Part shown: in pieces, positions 8,620-17,539 of the stretch
How the letters are laid out: the number at the start of each line of letters is the position of its first letter
How positions within the stretch are numbered: position 1 is the stretch's first letter
Assembly: GCA_021414115.1 (NCBI GenBank)
Contig: JAIOPD010000078.1
Location: 1 to 38,923 of the forward strand
Direction: 5' to 3'
Length of the DNA stretch: 38,923 bases
Source of the DNA: Planctomycetia bacterium
GTDB lineage: Bacteria > Planctomycetota > Planctomycetia > Pirellulales > UBA1268
Program-made: the position numbers and the translations under genes
Notes under the pieces: model-generated
The model's database searches: none
What the model saw: only the letters and a program-made list of their open reading frames with translations
Told to the model about the DNA's origin: nothing

Positions 8620-9234
8620 TTACGAGGCGGCCTCTAATCCCTTCGCCGGTGCGGCCCAGTGGATCACTGCCACCGGCAGAGCGGCGACAGGGAACTGCCG
8701 ATCCACCCAACCGGCCGCGGAGAGGTCGACAAGCCGCGGGGCAGGGCAGGGAGGGGCCACGCTCTTCGCGAGCAGGAGCTGGGCGGCGCACGAGGCCGCG
8801 ACCACCGCGGCGATCGAGTCGCTGGTCACGTGCCAGCCTGCTGGAAGTGCTGACAGGCGGCCACCGCGACCGAGCCAGGCTGGTGCATCGAGCACCACCG
8901 GCATCCCTGTTCTGGCCGGCTCCGCGTTGACGCTCCAGCCGATCGCGTCCGCGACGAGCCGGGCAGTCAACCCCATGGCGTCGATCGCCAGTCGATGCAT
9001 CAGTTCCGCCGGACGTGGGTTCGCTTGGTCGATCGACCGCAACCCGTCGACCATCGCACCACCCCCGACGACGACCGTCGCCGGCCCCGGCACCTCGGCG
9101 AGCAGCACGCGGAGTTCATCAGGCCACCGCGGTCGCGCGAGCAGGCTGCCGCCGAACTTGACGATCCACGAGGCTTGGTCGTCCACGCGACCAATCGGCC
9201 CGCGAATCACGCCCCGGTTCCAGGCAGGCGTCAT
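8620..9234 (-). CDS. mfnE: Amino-acid-kinase-fold protein, MfnE-like (methanofuran biosynthesis kinase)
   Basis: 204 aa, short like the MfnE/uridylate-kinase-like branch. Motifs: WIVKFGGSLL (about 23-32), the nucleotide/substrate Gly loop VVVGGGAMVDGLRSID, AELMHRLAIDAMGL, and WHVTSDSIAAVVA, corresponding to the conserved DS.A segment before the ATP site. In methanogens and methylotrophs MfnE phosphorylates aminomethylfuran-methyl phosphate to the diphosphate that MfnF couples to glutamyl-tyramine. The ATG overlaps the preceding mfnF stop by 4 nt. The assignment rests on fold plus the mfnD-mfnF neighbours; alone it would only be called an amino acid kinase. Confidence 0.7.
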   Translation of the reverse strand: MTPAWNRGVIRGPIGRVDDQASWIVKFGGSLLARPRWPDELRVLLAEVPGPATVVVGGGAMVDGLRSIDQANPRPAELMHRLAIDAMGLTARLVADAIGWSVNAEPARTGMPVVLDAPAWLGRGGRLSALPAGWHVTSDSIAAVVAASCAAQLLLAKSVAPPCPAPRLVDLSAAGWVDRQFPVAALPVAVIHWAAPAKGLEAAS

Positions 9235-10271
9235 GGCAGGTCCTCCCGCGCGATGAGGGCGAGTGCATGCGCCGGAGCCGAACGCGACACCGCGGCACCG
9301 AGCGTCGTCGGCAGGGAGAGCGTGTCGACGGTCCAGCCCAGGCGGGCAAGGGCCATCCGCGCGAGCCGCTCGCCGTGCCCCGAGATGACGATCTCCCGGG
9401 GCCGCCAGCCGCGTGTGCGGGCCACACGATCAATCGCCCGCGCGATCGCCCGACTCTGCACCTCGGCGCACCAGCGGGCGGCGCACACCGCGTCGCCGAC
9501 AGTCAGCTCGGCCGGCTCCACGAGCATCGAACGGGCGATCCTGATCCGGGCCGCATCGACGGTGAGCGGCCCGCCGTCGGCCGTGTCGCAAGGCTTACCC
9601 GACTCGGTCAGTTCACCGAGCAGCAGCCACACGTCTCGCGAATCCGCAAATCGCTCGCTCGCCACCGGCCGCCGCAGCCGCCCGTGGGGCAGCGACCGCA
9701 CCAGCGCCGGCAGGGGTGTCCGTTCGATCCCGGTGTAGACGAGTTCTCCAGACAGCATGCGGCCCGGATCATCACGGGCCAGTGGGGCCGGCCTGCGATC
9801 CAACAGAGGCACGACGTCGGTGGTCGTCGAGCCGATGTCGATGAGCACGCCACAGTCCTGCGTCACGTGTGCGGCGGCCAGCCGCGCCAGCGCGTGCCAG
9901 TTGGATGCGGCCGCCTCGAGGGGGCGTGCTCCCGCCTCCGACGGCGGCACGATCCTGCCGGAAGTGAGGTAGATGCCCGGCTCACCGCAGTCGCACGCCT
10001 CGGCGGCCGCGACGATGGCCGACACAATGTGGTTCACGCCCGCCGCCCGCGAGACAAAGCAGTCGGCGATCTCGCCCGTCATCGTGGCGACGACGCGGCG
10101 TGGCGACGCCGCGCCGATGATCTGCGTGAGCGCATCGGGAAGTCGCTGCCACTCCCGCCACATCGCGAACGGCTCGCTGTGCGTCCACCCCCGACCATCG
10201 GCCGCCTTGAGGTTGGCTCCGCCCACGTCGAGCGCGAGCACGTCGGGTCGGGGCCGGTCAGGCTGAGGCAT
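9231..10271 (-). CDS. mfnF: Hydantoinase/oxoprolinase-like protein of the H4MPT-linked C1 pathway, MfnF-like
   Basis: 346 aa with an actin-like ATPase fold: LALDVGGANLKAAD (phosphate 1 loop, about 12-25), GVLIDIGSTTTDVVPL (phosphate 2 loop) and VISGHGERLARMAL (adenosine region). The pattern matches the TIGR03123 type 'probable H4MPT-linked C1 transfer pathway protein'. The methanogen member is MfnF, which joins the furan moiety to glutamyl-tyramine. The start at 10271 (MPQPDRPRP) puts the phosphate loop at the N-terminus; the frame is open 36 codons further inside mfnD. It overlaps the end of mfnD by 14 nt and mfnE by 4 nt, a tightly packed operon. Confidence 0.75.
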   Translation of the reverse strand: MPQPDRPRPDVLALDVGGANLKAADGRGWTHSEPFAMWREWQRLPDALTQIIGAASPRRVVATMTGEIADCFVSRAAGVNHIVSAIVAAAEACDCGEPGIYLTSGRIVPPSEAGARPLEAAASNWHALARLAAAHVTQDCGVLIDIGSTTTDVVPLLDRRPAPLARDDPGRMLSGELVYTGIERTPLPALVRSLPHGRLRRPVASERFADSRDVWLLLGELTESGKPCDTADGGPLTVDAARIRIARSMLVEPAELTVGDAVCAARWCAEVQSRAIARAIDRVARTRGWRPREIVISGHGERLARMALARLGWTVDTLSLPTTLGAAVSRSAPAHALALIAREDLP

Positions 10272-11298
10272 CTTCGGTAAGCGAGAAGGCGGCGGGAGAC
10301 ACATCGGGCACGACGGCGCCGCGGCACATCGCCACGTCGACGATCGCCCGCACGAGGCTGGCGTCACCGCCGCTGCCAAACCCCACGAACGACGTCGTCA
10401 ACCGCGGGTTGACCTCGAGCACGCGATCATCGAGCCCGTCAGCGCGGTCCCCGAGGATCATATCGACTCCGACCCAACCCGCCTGCGTGCCCCCGCCGGC
10501 ACGGGCGACGGCCGCCACTGCCCGGGCCGCCAGTCGCTCGGCCCGCCGCGCAACCGCCGGTTCGACGAGCGGCTCGCCGCCCAGATACCTCGGCCGAGGC
10601 CCGCTGGAAAACCGCTGCCGCACCGCCGGCAACGGGAGGATGCCGGCCGCCCCGACGAGACACGACACGCCGACGGCCAGCCCTTCGACAAATGCCTCGA
10701 GCCGCGCGGGCTCCACGGCCGGCGGAGGTGGAACATCGCCATGCCGGACGACGACGAGGTCGTCGCACCCCGTGCTCCCCCGGGCCTTGCGAACCGCGGG
10801 AAGGTGAAACCACCGCGGCCATGACTCGCCGGCCGTGAGCGGCCGGCCCGCCGGCACGGGCACGCCGGCCGCGGCGAGCGTGTCGATCGTGGCCTGCTTG
10901 TCGGAGGCGATCTCGATGAAGCCGTTGCTCGGTGCCAGCACCTCGCCGCCCGCCGCGCGAACGGCCGTCACCCGGTTCGCGAGGATCCCCGCCGTCTCGG
11001 GTGCCACGATCAGCGTCGCATCGGCCCGCCGCGACTCGTCGATGAGTACCTCGATCTCGTCGCCAGCGGCCACGGATCGCACGCGGACGCCAGCGGGCAC
11101 GTCGATCCGACATGCTTCATCGACGAGCGCCGTCACCTCGAACCCGCCATCCCGCACGGCATCGGCGAGCAGGCCACGAAACATCACCCGTCCCTCGCGG
11201 GCCAGCGGCTCGACGTCATCCCCATTGCCGACGACGTGCCACCGATCGTGCCCCGCGAACCCTCCGGAGCAGCACCATTCGTGGATCACGAGTCGCAT
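10258..11298 (-). CDS. mfnD: ATP-grasp ligase, MfnD-like (tyramine-glutamate ligase)
   Basis: 346 aa. It opens with MRLVIHEWCCSGGF, the E...SGG start of this ATP-grasp branch, and continues with APSNGFIEIASDKQATIDTL. It ends in an ATP-grasp metal site, QAGWVGVDMILGD and VLEVNPRLTTSFVGFGSGG; the E and N of EVNPR would bind Mg. MfnD adds the first gamma-glutamate to tyramine in methanofuran synthesis. Close relatives occur in methylotroph C1 clusters. It begins 32 nt after the Rieske-SufT stop with no strong ribosome binding site, so it is probably part of the same transcript. The exact amine substrate is inferred. Confidence 0.72.
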   Translation of the reverse strand: MRLVIHEWCCSGGFAGHDRWHVVGNGDDVEPLAREGRVMFRGLLADAVRDGGFEVTALVDEACRIDVPAGVRVRSVAAGDEIEVLIDESRRADATLIVAPETAGILANRVTAVRAAGGEVLAPSNGFIEIASDKQATIDTLAAAGVPVPAGRPLTAGESWPRWFHLPAVRKARGSTGCDDLVVVRHGDVPPPPAVEPARLEAFVEGLAVGVSCLVGAAGILPLPAVRQRFSSGPRPRYLGGEPLVEPAVARRAERLAARAVAAVARAGGGTQAGWVGVDMILGDRADGLDDRVLEVNPRLTTSFVGFGSGGDASLVRAIVDVAMCRGAVVPDVSPAAFSLTEDASA

Positions 11299-11330: not shown

Positions 11331-12110
11331 TCAGAAGATCCCCAACTGGTCACGGGCCGCGTCGGTCATGCGGTCGGGCGTCCATGGCGGCTCCATCACG
11401 ATCCGCACTTCCACCGCTGCGACCTCCGGGCTTGCCCCCACGCACCGCTTCGTGTCGGCGATCAGCTGCGGGCCGGCCGGACAGGCGGGGCTCGTCATCG
11501 TCATGTCGATGGCGACGTGCTGCTTCCCCGGCACGTCGGCTGATGGCGAGAGCGTGACGCCGTAGATGAGCCCGAGATCGACGATGTTGACGAAGAGTTC
11601 GGGATCCTTGACTTCCTTGAGTATCTCGCGGACGCGATCCTCGCAGAGCGGGCCGGCCTCACCGGCGGCGACCGCGGCCGCGGACCCCGCGGCAGCCGCC
11701 GGCCCCGCCGCCGTTGGAGTGGCGGGCGTCGCGGGCGGCGCTGCGACCGCCGGTGTTGCGATGGTGCCGTGCAAAGGGGGACCACCAGCGCCCGCTTCGG
11801 CTCGCAGCCGAACCCAGACACCACCGTCCTCGACCTTCACGTCATGGGCCCGCGTCGACCGCACGGCCGGCATCGAGAGCGCCGCGCCCGTGCGGATGTC
11901 GAACTTGGCACCGTGACGGGGGCAGGCAATCTTGTGATCGCGGAGTTCGCCGTCGGCAAGCGGCCCGCCATCGTGCGTGCAGACGTCGTCGATCGCGTAG
12001 AAAACGCCCTCGACGTGAAAGAGCGCCACCATGTCGCCATCGACCTCGACGAGCGTCTTGCCCGGATCGGGAATCTCGGCGACGTCGGCGACCCGGTGAA
12101 AACTGGCCAT
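11331..12110 (-). CDS. Rieske [2Fe-2S] - SufT (DUF59/MIP18) fusion protein
   Basis: 259 aa in two parts. Residues ~1-105 are a NirD-type Rieske ferredoxin with both ligand pairs intact: C44-T-H46 and C63-P-R-H66, in VCTHDGGPL and CPRHGAKFDI. Residues ~108-152 are an Ala/Pro/Thr linker. Residues ~155-259 are a SufT/MIP18 domain: KDPELFVNIVDLGLIYG, MTSPACPAG (conserved Cys 210) and PPWTPDRMTD. SufT-type proteins help mature or insert Fe-S clusters. The Rieske part could give redox sensing or electron supply, which is inference. The gene follows sufD by 109 bp in the suf operon, supporting a role in cluster assembly. Confidence 0.9.
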   Translation of the reverse strand: MASFHRVADVAEIPDPGKTLVEVDGDMVALFHVEGVFYAIDDVCTHDGGPLADGELRDHKIACPRHGAKFDIRTGAALSMPAVRSTRAHDVKVEDGGVWVRLRAEAGAGGPPLHGTIATPAVAAPPATPATPTAAGPAAAAGSAAAVAAGEAGPLCEDRVREILKEVKDPELFVNIVDLGLIYGVTLSPSADVPGKQHVAIDMTMTSPACPAGPQLIADTKRCVGASPEVAAVEVRIVMEPPWTPDRMTDAARDQLGIF

Positions 12111-12219: not shown

Positions 12220-13614
12220 TCAGGTGATCCGGCGGATGCGGCTGCCGATCGCGCGGGCGAGCGCCTCGCGCACCTGCGGGATCGTGATCCGGTCGAACAC
12301 CTGCTGGAAAAACCCGGCGACCACGAGCCGGGCCGCCTCGTCGGCCGAGAGGCCACGGGCCTGGGCATAAAAAATCTGTTCTGCATCGACGCGACCACTG
12401 GTCGCACCGTGGGTGCAGCGGACATCGTCGGCCTCGATTTCGAGGCCGGGAATCGAGTCGGCCCGCGCCTCATCGGAGAGCATGAGGTTGTCGTTGCGCT
12501 GGTAGCCATCGGTCTTCTGGGCGGCCTTGTCGACCTTGATCATGCCCCGCCAGACGAGCCGACTGCGATCCTGGAGGGCGCCCTTGTAGAGCAGGTCGCT
12601 CCGGCAGGAGGGGGCCTCGTGATGCTGGAGCGTGTTGTAGACGAGATGTTGGCGGCCCTCCGTGAACATCACACCGTTGACCTGCGCGTCGGCCCCACGG
12701 CCGACGAGCGCGACATCCTGGGCGACCTGCGAAAGCCGGCTGCCGAGGGCCCCGAGCGTCCACTGAAGCCGGCCGTTCTCATGCACGAGGGCCCGCTGCC
12801 GGGCGACATGCCAGACGCCGGTGTTCCAGTTCTGGAGGTTGACCATCCGCAGCAAGCCGCCCCGGCCCACCACGATCTCGGTGCCGCCGCAGTGAAAGCC
12901 GCCGGCGCCGCCGGCCGGGCCGCCACCGGCCGTCTCCGTGAGCACCGTCGCCTCGGCGCCCTCGCCGAGCACGACGAGCACGTGCGACGTGTCGACGCCC
13001 CCCTCGCTGATCCCGGAGATCACGTGCAGCGGCGCGGCGATCTTCACGCGGGGCGGCACATAGAGCACGGCGCTCGCGGCGTGGAACGCGGCGTGCAGTG
13101 CCGCGAACCAATCGCAGCCGGCATCGATGACGGAGAACCAGTGCGGCCGGAAGAGCTCGGCGTGCGCCGCTAGCAGCCGGTCGGAGGAGCCGAAGACGAC
13201 GCCCTGGGCGGCAAGGGCAGGATCGAGTTCGTCACGGACGACGTGCCCGTCGACCGCCGCGAACCGGCCACCGAGGGTCGCGGGCCCGACGGGACTGGCA
13301 GCTGCCTCGAAGTCGGCATATGACTCGCTGGCGAGGTCGCCCGAGAGGATCGCAGGGGCGAGCAGCCCTTCGTCCGCCACTCCGGCCCGAATCGGGGCAG
13401 GGCGGGGCCCCCAGGCCTTCGGCTTGAAGAGCCTGAGATCGGTCCGCATCCAGTTTTCATCGCGACGATCAGGGAGCGTGAGCGACTCGAGCCGCTCGAA
13501 CGCCTGCCGGCGGGCGGCAATCGCCCATTCCGGGAGCGCGGATGCGCCGACGAGCCTGTCGAAAGATTCACGGTCGAACGCCGGAGCGGAAGGAGTGACG
13601 GTGGAGGTGCTCAT
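12220..13614 (-). CDS. sufD: Fe-S cluster scaffold subunit SufD
   Basis: 464 aa, typical for SufD. The C-terminal half shows the SufB/D beta-helix fold with RSDLLYKGALQDRSRLVWRG, KTDGYQRNDNLMLSDEARA and SIPGLEIEADDVRCTHGATS. The last includes the conserved Cys-Thr-His near the SufB-SufD interface. The N-terminal part carries FDRLVGASALPEWAIAARRQ, usual for SufD. It works with SufB and SufC as the SufBC2D scaffold. It starts 10 bp after the sufB stop with little ribosome-binding sequence, suggesting coupling. Confidence 0.93.
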   Translation of the reverse strand: MSTSTVTPSAPAFDRESFDRLVGASALPEWAIAARRQAFERLESLTLPDRRDENWMRTDLRLFKPKAWGPRPAPIRAGVADEGLLAPAILSGDLASESYADFEAAASPVGPATLGGRFAAVDGHVVRDELDPALAAQGVVFGSSDRLLAAHAELFRPHWFSVIDAGCDWFAALHAAFHAASAVLYVPPRVKIAAPLHVISGISEGGVDTSHVLVVLGEGAEATVLTETAGGGPAGGAGGFHCGGTEIVVGRGGLLRMVNLQNWNTGVWHVARQRALVHENGRLQWTLGALGSRLSQVAQDVALVGRGADAQVNGVMFTEGRQHLVYNTLQHHEAPSCRSDLLYKGALQDRSRLVWRGMIKVDKAAQKTDGYQRNDNLMLSDEARADSIPGLEIEADDVRCTHGATSGRVDAEQIFYAQARGLSADEAARLVVAGFFQQVFDRITIPQVREALARAIGSRIRRIT

Positions 13615-13624
13615 GGTCGTCGCG

Positions 13625-15052
13625 TCAGCCCACCGAGCCTTCCATTTGCAGTTCGATCAGCCGGTTCATCTCGACGGCGTATTCCATCGGCAGCTCCTTG
13701 ACGAGCGGCTCGATGAAACCGCCGACGATCATCGTGCTCGCCTCGGCCTCGGAAAGGCCGCGGCTCATGAGATAGAAGAGCTGCTCCTCACCGATCTTCG
13801 AGACGCTCGCCTCGTGACCGATCGAGACGTCCTGCTCCTCGATTTCGATATACGGATAGGTGTCGCTGCGGCTCCGGTCGTCGAGAATGAGGGCGTCGCA
13901 GACGACGCTCGACTTGCTCTTCTTCGCCCCCGGTTCCACCCTCACGAGGCCGCGGTAGCTCGCCCGACCACCGTTCTTGGAAATGCTCTTGGAGACGATC
14001 CGGCCGCTCGTGTGCGGGGCCGCATGCACGAGTTTCGCGCCGGCGTCCTGATGCTGGCCGGCCGAGGCGAAGGCGATCGAGAGGATCTCGCCGCGGGCCC
14101 CCGGCTCCATCATGTAGACCGCCGGATATTTCATCGTCAGGTGGCTGCCGAGATTGCCGTCGATCCACTCCATCATCGAGTCGCCGTAGGCCATGGCCCG
14201 TTTGGTGACGAGGTTGTAGATGTTGTTGGCCCAGTTCTGGATCGTGGTGTAACGGCAGCGGCCGCCCCGCTTGACCACGATCTCGACCACCGCCGAGTGC
14301 AGGCTCTCGGTGGAATACATCGGGGCCGTGCAGCCCTCGACGTAGTGCACCTGGGCCCCCTCGTCGACGATGATCAACGTCCGCTCGAACTGGCCCATGC
14401 TCTCCGCGTTGATGCGGAAATAGGCCTGGAGGGGAAACTCGATCTTCACCCCCTTGGGCACGTAGATGAACGAGCCTCCCGACCAGACGGCCGAGTTGAG
14501 GGCGGCGAACTTGTTGTCGGTGGGCGGGATGATCTTTCCGAAATACTCCCGCAGCAGATCGGGATGCTCGCGGACGGCGGTGTCGGTGTCGGTGAAGAGC
14601 ACGCCCTTCTTGGCGAGATCCTCCTGGAGCGACCCATACACCACCTCGCTCTCGAACTGCGCCTTCACCCCGGAAAGGAACTTCCGCTCCGCCTCGGGGA
14701 TGCCCAGCCGGTCGAACGTCTTCTTGATGGCGTCGGGCACCTCCTCCCAGGTCTTGCCCTGCTGCTCAGCCGGCTTGAGGTAATAGAAGATGTCCTGAAA
14801 ATCGATGCCGACATGGCCGCCCCAGTGGGGCATCGGCTTCGACTCGAAGATCTCGAGCGACTTGAGGCGGAAGTCCCGCATCCAGGCGGGCTCGCCCTTC
14901 ATCTCCGAAATCTGCGAGACGATCGACGCATCGAGGCCCCTCCGGGCCTTGAAGACGGCGGGAGAGTCGGTGCGGAAGTCGTATTTGTTGATCTCGCCGA
15001 GCTGCGAATGGACAGCCGCGAGCGTCGAGGATTCGTCGAATCCGGTGGACAT
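13625..15052 (-). CDS. sufB: Fe-S cluster scaffold subunit SufB
   Basis: 475 aa, the expected length. Signature segments: [67 protein letters not shown] and [20 protein letters not shown]. The Cys in VEGCTAP and in SSVVCDALI are among those conserved in the family. Builds [4Fe-4S] or [2Fe-2S] clusters in the SufBC2D complex. A good AGGAG ribosome binding site precedes the ATG at 15052, 51 bp after the sufC stop. SufS and SufE/SufU are not in the window, so the sulfur donor must be encoded elsewhere. Confidence 0.96.
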
Positions 15053-15103: not shown

Positions 15104-15952
15104 TCAGACCGATACGGCCCGCGCCGACTCTTCCATCGCCTTCTCCGCCGCCGCCGCCTCCGGATAGGCCGCGCGGATCCGCTCATAGCCCCGCTTGTGA
15201 AGCTCCTGGGCCAGTTCCGGCCCGCCCGACTCGACGATCTTGCCGCCGAGCATGACGTGCGTCTTGAGCGGAATGTTGTGCTCGAGCAGTTGCTCGTGGT
15301 GGGTGATGATCAGGATCCCCATCTCGGCACCGCCGATCCGGGCGATGCTCTCGCTTGCCAGCCGGACGGCGTCGGCGTCGAGGCCGCTATCCGTCTCGTC
15401 GAGGACCGCAAACTTCGGCCGCAGCATCGCGAGCTGGAGGATCTCGGCCCGCTTCATCTCGCCGCCGGAAAACCCGTCGTTGACATAACGGCGGGCAAAC
15501 TCGGTGTCCATCGAGAGCTCGCCCATTTTGCTCTTGAGCTCCGTGCGGAAATCCCGCATCGGCATCAGTTCGTGCCCCTCCTTGCGGTCGGGGTTGCGGA
15601 CGTTGGTCACCGCATGCCGCAAGAAGTCGGCGAGGCGGACTCCGGGAATCGACATCGGCCTCTGGAAGGCGAGAAACACGCCGGCGCGGGCCCGCTGATC
15701 GGGCTCCATCGCGAGGATGTCGTGCCGAGTGCCGTCGGCATCGACAAGTTCGATCGTGCCCGAAGTCACTTCGTACGAGGGATGCCCCATGATTGCGTAA
15801 CCGAGCGTGCTCTTCCCGGAGCCGTTGGGCCCCATGAGCGCGTGGATCTCGCCGCGGCCAATCTCGAGGTTGACGCCCTTGAGAATCTCCTGACCATCAA
15901 CCGAGACGTGAAGGTTGGAGACGACGAGCGTTTCTTTCGCGGCGTGGGTCAT
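15104..15952 (-). CDS. sufC: Fe-S assembly ATPase SufC
   Basis: 282 aa, with ~30 residues more at the C-terminus than the usual 250. ABC ATPase motifs: Walker A GPNGSGKST (41-49), Q-loop AFQRPMSIPG (~95), signature FSGGEMKR (161-168), Walker B FAVLDETDSGLD (181-192) and switch His in ILIITHHEQLL. The signature with GE in place of GQ and the FQ.P..IPG segment are typical of SufC rather than transporter ATPases. Powers conformational change of SufB-SufD. Its order before sufB and sufD is the common non-enterobacterial suf layout. Confidence 0.96.
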   Translation of the reverse strand: MTHAAKETLVVSNLHVSVDGQEILKGVNLEIGRGEIHALMGPNGSGKSTLGYAIMGHPSYEVTSGTIELVDADGTRHDILAMEPDQRARAGVFLAFQRPMSIPGVRLADFLRHAVTNVRNPDRKEGHELMPMRDFRTELKSKMGELSMDTEFARRYVNDGFSGGEMKRAEILQLAMLRPKFAVLDETDSGLDADAVRLASESIARIGGAEMGILIITHHEQLLEHNIPLKTHVMLGGKIVESGGPELAQELHKRGYERIRAAYPEAAAAEKAMEESARAVSV

Positions 15953-15993: not shown

Positions 15994-16626
15994 TCAGGAC
16001 TGGATCTTCTGGTGGTCGAACACGAGTTCGTCGGCAGCGACCGCGGGAGCCACGTAGCCGGAGTGGTGCGGCACGGGGAGTTCGTCGGCGATCTTGCCGA
16101 TCCCGCCCTTATGCCTGGCGATCCGCTGCCCCTGAATCTTGTCCTGGATCCGCATCAGCCCCTCCAGCAGGCTCTCCGGACGCGGCGGACAGCCGGGCAC
16201 GTAGACATCGACCGGCACGACGAGATCGACGCCCTTGACGACGTGATAGCCCCACTTGAAGTACGGTCCGCCACCGGTCGTGCACGCGCCCATGGCGATC
16301 ACGTATTTCGGATCGGGCATGAGGTTGTAGAGGCGGCGAACGCGACTGGCCATCTTGTAGGTCACGGTGCCCGCCACGACCATCAGGTCGGCCTGCCGCG
16401 GGGTGGCTCGGAACGCGCCGGCTCCAAAGCGATCCATGTCATAGCGGCTCGCCCCGGCGGCCATCATTTCGATCGCGCAGCACGCCAGGCCGAAGGTCAT
16501 CGGCCAGATGCTCGACTGACGGGCCCAGTTGATCGCTTGCTCGACCGTCGTCAGCACGAGATTTTCCTCGAAGCGTCCCTCGATCCAGGGCGTCGACGGA
16601 CTGGGCTGGGCGGCGTTGATGGTCAT
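15994..16626 (-). CDS. nuoB: NADH-quinone oxidoreductase subunit B (NuoB), isolated from other nuo genes
   Basis: 210 aa. All four ligands of the N2 [4Fe-4S] cluster are present: C49 and C50 ([13 protein letters not shown]), C115 (MGACTTGGG) and C146 (PGCPPRPE). [20 protein letters not shown] and [20 protein letters not shown] are standard NuoB text. It transfers electrons to quinone in the peripheral arm of complex I. A GGAG motif precedes the ATG. It lies between the SufR-like regulator (30 bp upstream) and sufC, with no nuoA, C or D beside it, which is unusual. Confidence 0.93.
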
Positions 16627-16656: not shown

Positions 16657-17379
16657 TTACAACCGACCGGCATTCGATGATGGAATGGGCTTTCTTTCAA
16701 GCCCTTGCGGCAGTGGCGGCAGGCTGGCCGCCGCATCGGGCGGGCCGGCATCGCCCGCGGCCGTGAACCGGCAGCAGGCCGCTCCATCGAGGCGGCACTC
16801 CGACAGTTGCACAGCCGCCCCGACGAGATCCTGAAGCATCAGTCGCTCGGCCGCGCAGATCGAGCGATCCTGTTCGGCCAGATCAGGGTAGGGGCAGGAA
16901 TAGCTGGTCAGCACCGGCAGGGCCGCCCCCTGCTCGACGACGCATGAGACGCCGCGCTCGCCGAGAATGGCCGCGACACTGGTGAGCCGTTCGGTGGGAG
17001 TCTGCCCTGAAACCTGCTCTCGGTAGACGTCGGCCAGCGAGCCGGCGATGCGGTTGAGCAACCCCTGTCGAACCGATGGCTCCCGCACGGATCGGATTTC
17101 CCGCCACAGCACCATCGCGAGATCGCGGAAATTGTCGCCGCCGAGCCGGCGACCGGCAGCCGTGAGGCTGTAGACATGCGCCGGGCGACCGCGGGGCCTT
17201 GATTCGGCCTTGCGCTCGACGATTCCGGCACGCATCAGCCGATCGAGCCGCTGGCGGACCGCCGTCGCGGTCACGCCGAGTTGGCCGGCCAGTTCGCCAA
17301 TGCCGAGCACCGCATCCCCGCGGAGCAGGTCCACGACGGCCGCGTCAGAGTCTCGAAAACTGGGGAGCGAATCGGACAT
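16657..17379 (-). CDS. sufR: SufR-like Fe-S-sensing transcriptional regulator
   Basis: 240 aa. Residues ~15-75 are a winged helix (AVLGIGELAGQLGVTATAVRQ, then RGRPAHVYSLTAAGRRL). The C-terminal part carries Cys at 146, 162 (SCPYPDL), 175 (SICAAE), 195, 202 and 203 (ECRLDGAACCRF). This matches the CPY...C..E...C...G..C.F pattern with which SufR binds a [4Fe-4S] cluster and represses suf. The Pro-rich tail (~212-240) is an extra. The frame is open to 17457, but a promoter lies in that stretch, so 17379 is taken as the start. It heads the suf-nuoB-mfn run and probably autoregulates it. Confidence 0.85.
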   Translation of the reverse strand: MSDSLPSFRDSDAAVVDLLRGDAVLGIGELAGQLGVTATAVRQRLDRLMRAGIVERKAESRPRGRPAHVYSLTAAGRRLGGDNFRDLAMVLWREIRSVREPSVRQGLLNRIAGSLADVYREQVSGQTPTERLTSVAAILGERGVSCVVEQGAALPVLTSYSCPYPDLAEQDRSICAAERLMLQDLVGAAVQLSECRLDGAACCRFTAAGDAGPPDAAASLPPLPQGLERKPIPSSNAGRL

Positions 17380-17386
17380 ACACCCT

Positions 17387-17414
17387 AATTTACGCTTCTC
17401 GTCATTTTTGACAA
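17387..17414 (-). promoter_or_regulatory. Promoter with overlapping dyad, sufR operon
   Basis: On the minus strand TTGTCA (17409-17414), a 16-bp spacer and TAAATT (17387-17392) form the best sigma70-like promoter in the window, in a locally AT-rich patch. A dyad GTCA-TTTT-TGAC (17401-17412) overlaps the -35, a natural operator position. The predicted start of transcription falls within 1-2 nt of the sufR ATG at 17379, so the message may be leaderless or nearly so. Confidence 0.55.
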
Positions 17415-17539
17415 CTCGATGTGCGAAAAGTTCCTTGGGGTGCGGTTTTGCCGACATCGGGGCGATCGCGTCGTTCCCTGTTTGGCTGAGACGTGGCTAC
17501 AGTGAACGGTGAAGTGCTCTCACACGCGGGTTTTCCTTG

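Follow-up and report, generated by a model that had tools for sequence, protein, structure and literature searches.

A Rieske ferredoxin domain fused to SufT at the end of a planctomycete suf operon and its possible role in cluster delivery

Introduction

In ISC operons, a ferredoxin (Fdx) of the four-cysteine adrenodoxin type without a DUF59 fusion is encoded together with the cluster assembly machinery. About half of the SufT genes are found near sufBC. The SufT of S. aureus aids the maturation of Fe-S proteins at high demand, and among 761 SufT homologs Mashruwala et al. 2016 counted three whose N-terminal domain is a Rieske iron-oxygenase ferredoxin (modular structure S7), besides fusions with carriers or scaffolds, namely U-type (S5) and Nfu (PMC4982691). 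The S7 tally drew on genomes available in 2011 and, in the accessible part of that paper, it stands as a bare count with neither a fusion-versus-separate phylogeny nor biochemistry. SpFdx4, a Rieske ferredoxin of the suf cluster of Streptomyces peucetius, was purified, was raised upon inactivation of sufR and, together with a ferredoxin reductase, delivered electrons to the P450 DoxA in vitro (PMC12979805). The chemistry of SufT and the electron source of SUF systems are open questions, and a natural fusion of SufT with a ferredoxin is a genetic pointer to a partner.

Such a fusion is encoded in the 38,923-nucleotide stretch of planctomycete DNA analysed here (hereafter the window). It differs from the Fdx of ISC operons in being of Rieske type and fused to DUF59. 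With its N-terminal Rieske domain and C-terminal DUF59 domain in a single chain it has the S7 architecture as defined in PMC4982691. SpFdx4 resembles the Rieske domain of the window in being a Cys2His2 Rieske ferredoxin of a SufR-controlled suf operon, but it is stand-alone and its demonstrated partner is a P450 and not SufT or SufBCD (PMC12979805). The architecture is thus not new, having been counted in 2016, and it is its wide occurrence in one planctomycete group that is documented here; the gain is a well-defined, testable object within a kind of system already listed. In line with the first-pass annotation, which knew of no experimental study of such a fusion, the open-access literature yielded no functional study of a Rieske-SufT fusion, subscription journals being mostly outside this coverage.

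Organisation of the suf operon

The fusion gene had been placed at 11331-12110 within a suf operon by the first-pass annotation, and both the position and the setting were correct, the gene lying on the minus strand (Table 1); the plus-strand frame of the same interval is interrupted by a stop. The operon runs from the SufR-like regulator through the NuoB-like protein, SufC, SufB and SufD to Rieske-SufT with intergenic gaps of 30, 41, 51, 10 and 109 bp, so that sufC, sufB and sufD all precede the fusion on one strand. The region around the start of the fusion gene showed no promoter-like site, and a terminator-like hairpin seen inside sufD was not counted as evidence. Directly downstream of the operon, genes at 8620-11298 on the minus strand resemble those of methanofuran/H4MPT cofactor synthesis (an MfnD-like ATP-grasp protein, an MfnF-like/one_C_unchar_1 protein and an MfnE-like kinase, all scoring under curated cut-offs), and the MfnD-like and MfnF-like genes hold the suf-adjacent position in many relatives.

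Table 1. Genes of the suf operon and domains of the fusion protein in the window.
Feature	Position	Strand	Residues	Basis or remark
SufR-like winged-helix regulator	16657..17457	minus		TIGR02702 SufR_cyano 1.8e-10, under cut-off
NuoB-like protein, N2-type cysteines intact	15994..16626	minus		nuoB_fam TIGR01957 1.6e-69
sufC	15104..15952	minus		TIGR01978 2e-91
sufB	13625..15052	minus		TIGR01980 1e-213
sufD	12220..13614	minus		TIGR01981 7e-76, above cut-off
Rieske-SufT fusion gene	11331..12110	minus (12110→11331)	259 aa	one ORF
Rieske ferredoxin-type domain	11796..12110	minus	about 1-105	Pfam, closest solved structures
Linker, Ala/Pro			about 105-154 (about 50 residues)	joins Rieske domain to SufT domain
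SufT (DUF59/MIP18) domain	11334..11648	minus	about 155-259	Pfam, closest solved structures

Domains and predicted structure of the fusion protein

The domain-architecture search proposed in the first-pass annotation returned both expected Pfam families above their gathering scores. PF00355 (Rieske) matched residues 5-86 (6.1e-16; 58.6 bits against a gathering score of 20.3) and PF01883 (FeS_assembly_P) matched residues 157-235 (3.5e-14; 53.3 bits against 23.5), while the NCBIfam SufT models also matched with scores under their whole-protein cut-offs. The intact Rieske site that had been read from the letters was confirmed, with the ligand boxes CTHDGG (C44/H46) and CPRHGA (C63/H66), and so were the linker, which consists of 88% Ala, Pro, Thr, Gly and Val, and the SufT domain with its Cys 210, which stands in the motif TSPAC210P and aligns with TTPMCP of TM0487. 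The bc1-type extra cysteine pair is absent from the Rieske domain, in which C44 and C63 are the sole cysteines; judged by its sequence, the domain would not be a high-potential bc1/b6f Rieske protein, which has a disulfide pair beside the ligands. Dioxygenase ferredoxins are of low potential, and a low potential would be expected here because of this family knowledge and the absence of the extra cysteines.

The AlphaFold2 model showed two confident domains and pLDDT below 50 at residues 115-151, and the linker is predicted to be disordered. The closest solved structures of the Rieske part were the naphthalene, nitrotoluene and biphenyl dioxygenase ferredoxins (2qpz, 5bok and 1fqt), Foldseek giving a TMt of 0.96 for 2qpz and 0.89 for 1fqt with the N-terminal part. 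Fold and ligand boxes are common to these ferredoxins, 2e4q (BphA3) included, and the window protein (TMt 0.88-0.96, 32-35% identity), whereas the latter is SufT-fused, suf-operon-encoded and from a genome in which no BphA4-type reductase was found. For the SufT part the closest solved structures were TM0487 (1uwd) and 3lno, and Foldseek matched the DUF59 structures 3lno and 3cq2; sequence profiles concurred with the Foldseek assignments for both halves. The DUF59 fold, the conserved Cys and the association with a suf operon are shared with SufT/DUF59 proteins (TM0487 1uwd, 3lno, S. aureus SufT), and the N-terminal Rieske domain and long linker are extra in the fusion.

A redox or oxygen sensor that switches the activity of SufT or the operon could be imagined from just such a redox cofactor domain beside a maturation factor, and oxygen sensing had been suggested in the first-pass annotation. 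Nothing specific for it was found: the domain is similar to the ferredoxins that serve oxygen-using dioxygenases, it has no DNA-binding part and the operon is headed by a separate SufR-like regulator, which makes a sensor very improbable.

Conservation and selection

A full-length open fusion was present in 34 of the 37 genomes of the family of the window (genera g1-g12), and the remaining three (G003, G004 and G009) had short paralog-like matches only. C44, H46, C63, H66 and C210 were invariant in all 33 aligned proteins, down to 53% identity. Against twelve relatives, dN/dS (Nei-Gojobori) was 0.06-0.19 for the Rieske domain, 0.04-0.16 for the SufT domain and, where computable, 0.135-0.51 for the linker, with the reading frame open in all fusions. 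Both domains are under strong purifying selection, and the linker is relaxed yet never broken. The linker was mostly 35-79 aa long among fusions and its sequence was poorly conserved.

Separate Rieske and SufT genes in other families of the order could suggest that a frameshift or assembly artefact had joined two genes, which the first-pass annotation had named as a possible refutation. A full-length open fusion is, however, present in the 34 genomes of the family and recurs in other families in genomes assembled as a single contig, and the linker is open in every fusion with dN/dS below 1 where computable; an artefact was thereby ruled out and its probability is negligible.

Fused and separate genes across planctomycetes

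In most other families of the order, Rieske and SufT were two adjacent genes ending the same operon (e.g. Blastopirellula marina DSM 3645, L122), with a gap between the separate neighbours of often 6-160 bp, and in the relatives examined the fusion terminated the suf operon, after SufD. A class-wide sample showed an uninterrupted fusion in 14 of 148 genomes: two from the family of the window (its own genome and G032), one other relative from the order (G047), nine from family f22 and two from family f21. No fusion outside the class was found in a phylum sample at E ≤ 1e-45. The spread that the first-pass annotation had proposed to check is 34 of 37 genomes in the family and 14 of 148 in the class-wide sample. 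A common, already described architecture, which it had named as a further possible refutation, is partly the case, since the architecture is listed as S7 with n = 3 (PMC4982691).

A tree of both domains, with the linker left out, showed about eight changes of the fusion state, at least three of which were forced by well-supported branches; the tree is unrooted, so gain of the fusion is indistinguishable from loss in these counts. A single fused clade was rejected by the AU test (p = 0.0003) for a group that was named after the tree had been seen, and with two outlying families left out (within the order) one fused clade was not rejected (p-AU 0.066). A frame link between the separate genes was considered and dropped: 14 of 14 loci were in frame, but these had been ranked by their joint tblastn match, and the other loci gave 12/7/10, which is no signal.

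Beyond the phylum, a Paraburkholderia megaplasmid carried the order regulator-sufB-sufC-sufD-cysteine desulfurase-sufU-SufT-Rieske, a Cupriavidus megaplasmid had Rieske directly after SufT downstream of SufB-C-D, and the actinomycete Nonomuraea had SufB-SufD-Rieske-SufC with SufT downstream. None of the plasmid records covered 80% of the fusion query in one place. Since a Rieske ferredoxin occurs in the suf clusters of Paraburkholderia, Cupriavidus, Nonomuraea and Streptomyces, it is a recurrent accessory of suf operons, of which the fusion is one form.

The fusion might also be a by-product of adjacency, with no chemical step shared by the two domains, the Rieske domain being a general or stress-induced spare ferredoxin under SufR, SufT acting independently and the linker holding the domains apart. 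The genes are adjacent in most non-fused relatives at the short distances given above, so that little beyond the loss of a stop codon would be required, the linker is of variable length, poorly conserved and predicted disordered, and SpFdx4 serves a P450 (PMC12979805). Against this, the same pair in suf operons of three phyla and the repeated changes of fusion state exceed one adjacency accident, and we consider this explanation rather unlikely. The alternation of fused and separate states points to a step that the two proteins may share.

Two loci of family f22 (L169 and L171) had a suf operon with NuoB and SufT and without a Rieske gene, and they are natural absence cases for whether the ferredoxin is needed. 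A relative from the order (G038) encoded, at L043:6933-7817 on the minus strand, a SufT-only protein of 294 aa in which two stretches match DUF59, with no Rieske domain in its suf operon.

Iron-sulfur and redox genes of the genome and proposed function

The genome of the window is a MAG of about 95% completeness in 144 contigs, and gene absences are therefore provisional. SufS was encoded elsewhere, outside the operon of the window, and an A-type carrier and two more DUF59 genes were present. A gene for an A-type carrier stands beside a cysteine-desulfurase-like gene on both of the contigs C139 and C4, with identical A-type scores, and the assembly perhaps contains one contig twice. Searches of this about 95% complete genome for a U-type scaffold (PF01592), for Nfu (PF01106) and for the BphA4-type reductase domain (PF14759) gave no match, and no oxygenase was found among the annotated suf operon members. 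The partners of a dioxygenase ferredoxin component, a BphA4-type reductase and a terminal oxygenase, were thus not seen, the oxygenase being judged from operon members.

The best reading, which is held tentatively, is that a low-potential Rieske ferredoxin is tethered to SufT and would act as electron donor where SufT takes part in cluster delivery. A supply of electrons for cluster assembly or reductive transfer had also been suggested in the first-pass annotation, and it is compatible with the ferredoxin type of the domain and with its recurrent pairing or fusion with SufT inside suf operons. Here we infer cluster occupancy, potential, electron flow and the reaction concerned. A dioxygenase-ferredoxin-like Rieske [2Fe-2S] domain belonging to the suf operon would be tied covalently, through the flexible Ala/Pro linker, to a SufT that with its reactive Cys210 would cooperate with the SufBCD scaffold during the late steps of cluster maturation and delivery. 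The Rieske domain may feed electrons there into a reaction such as reductive [2Fe-2S]-to-[4Fe-4S] coupling or the reduction of persulfide or iron, in a role that would parallel the dedicated Fdx of ISC operons, and the tether would raise the local concentration and fix expression at 1:1. As no U-type scaffold or Nfu was detectable in the genome, more may be left to SufT. The main difficulty of the electron-donor reading is that ferredoxins of this kind usually receive their electrons from a BphA4-type reductase, and none was found in the genome. The Rieske-free suf operons of L169 and L171 also speak against it, since SufT can evidently do without Rieske there, and so does SpFdx4, for which feeding a P450, and not a role in cluster assembly, was what was demonstrated (PMC12979805).

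Alternatively, the Rieske domain would be a cluster carrier or acceptor, either passing on to SufT or a client its His-ligated [2Fe-2S] cluster, which SufBCD would have loaded, or being matured by the SufT to which it is attached. Such a handover has been proposed for 3Cys-1His NEET proteins. The missing PF14759 reductase suits a carrier, extra carrier capacity would be useful where no Nfu and no U-type scaffold was found, and the other SufT fusions join carriers or scaffolds (PMC4982691). Yet the genome has an A-type carrier and the nearest relatives of the domain are electron-transfer ferredoxins, so that a carrier is improbable. Extending the electron-donor reading, suf operons of several phyla would own a dedicated donor, a Rieske ferredoxin at the SufT step, that was repeatedly hard-wired into SufT in planctomycetes, and the NuoB-like protein could join that redox route; this wider proposal is doubtful.

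NuoB-like protein of the suf operon

The NuoB-like protein encoded between the SufR-like regulator and SufC kept all four N2-type cysteines (C49, C50, C115 and C146) and was conserved inside the suf operons of several planctomycete families with 65-87% identity to the copy of the window. A canonical nuo operon is encoded apart from it in the same genome (subunits A, B, C, E, F and H confirmed by Pfam), and the NuoB of that operon shared 42% identity with the suf-operon copy. No paper on a suf-operon NuoB-like protein was found in the open-access literature, and this gene may be the less explained and more interesting feature than the fusion. No NuoB match was found in the suf operons of three f21 loci (L174, L176 and L182). 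At L182, rhodanese and SufE genes (Pfam-confirmed) lay between SufD and Rieske-SufT, and a similar rhodanese-like ORF was found at the same place in L174 and L176.
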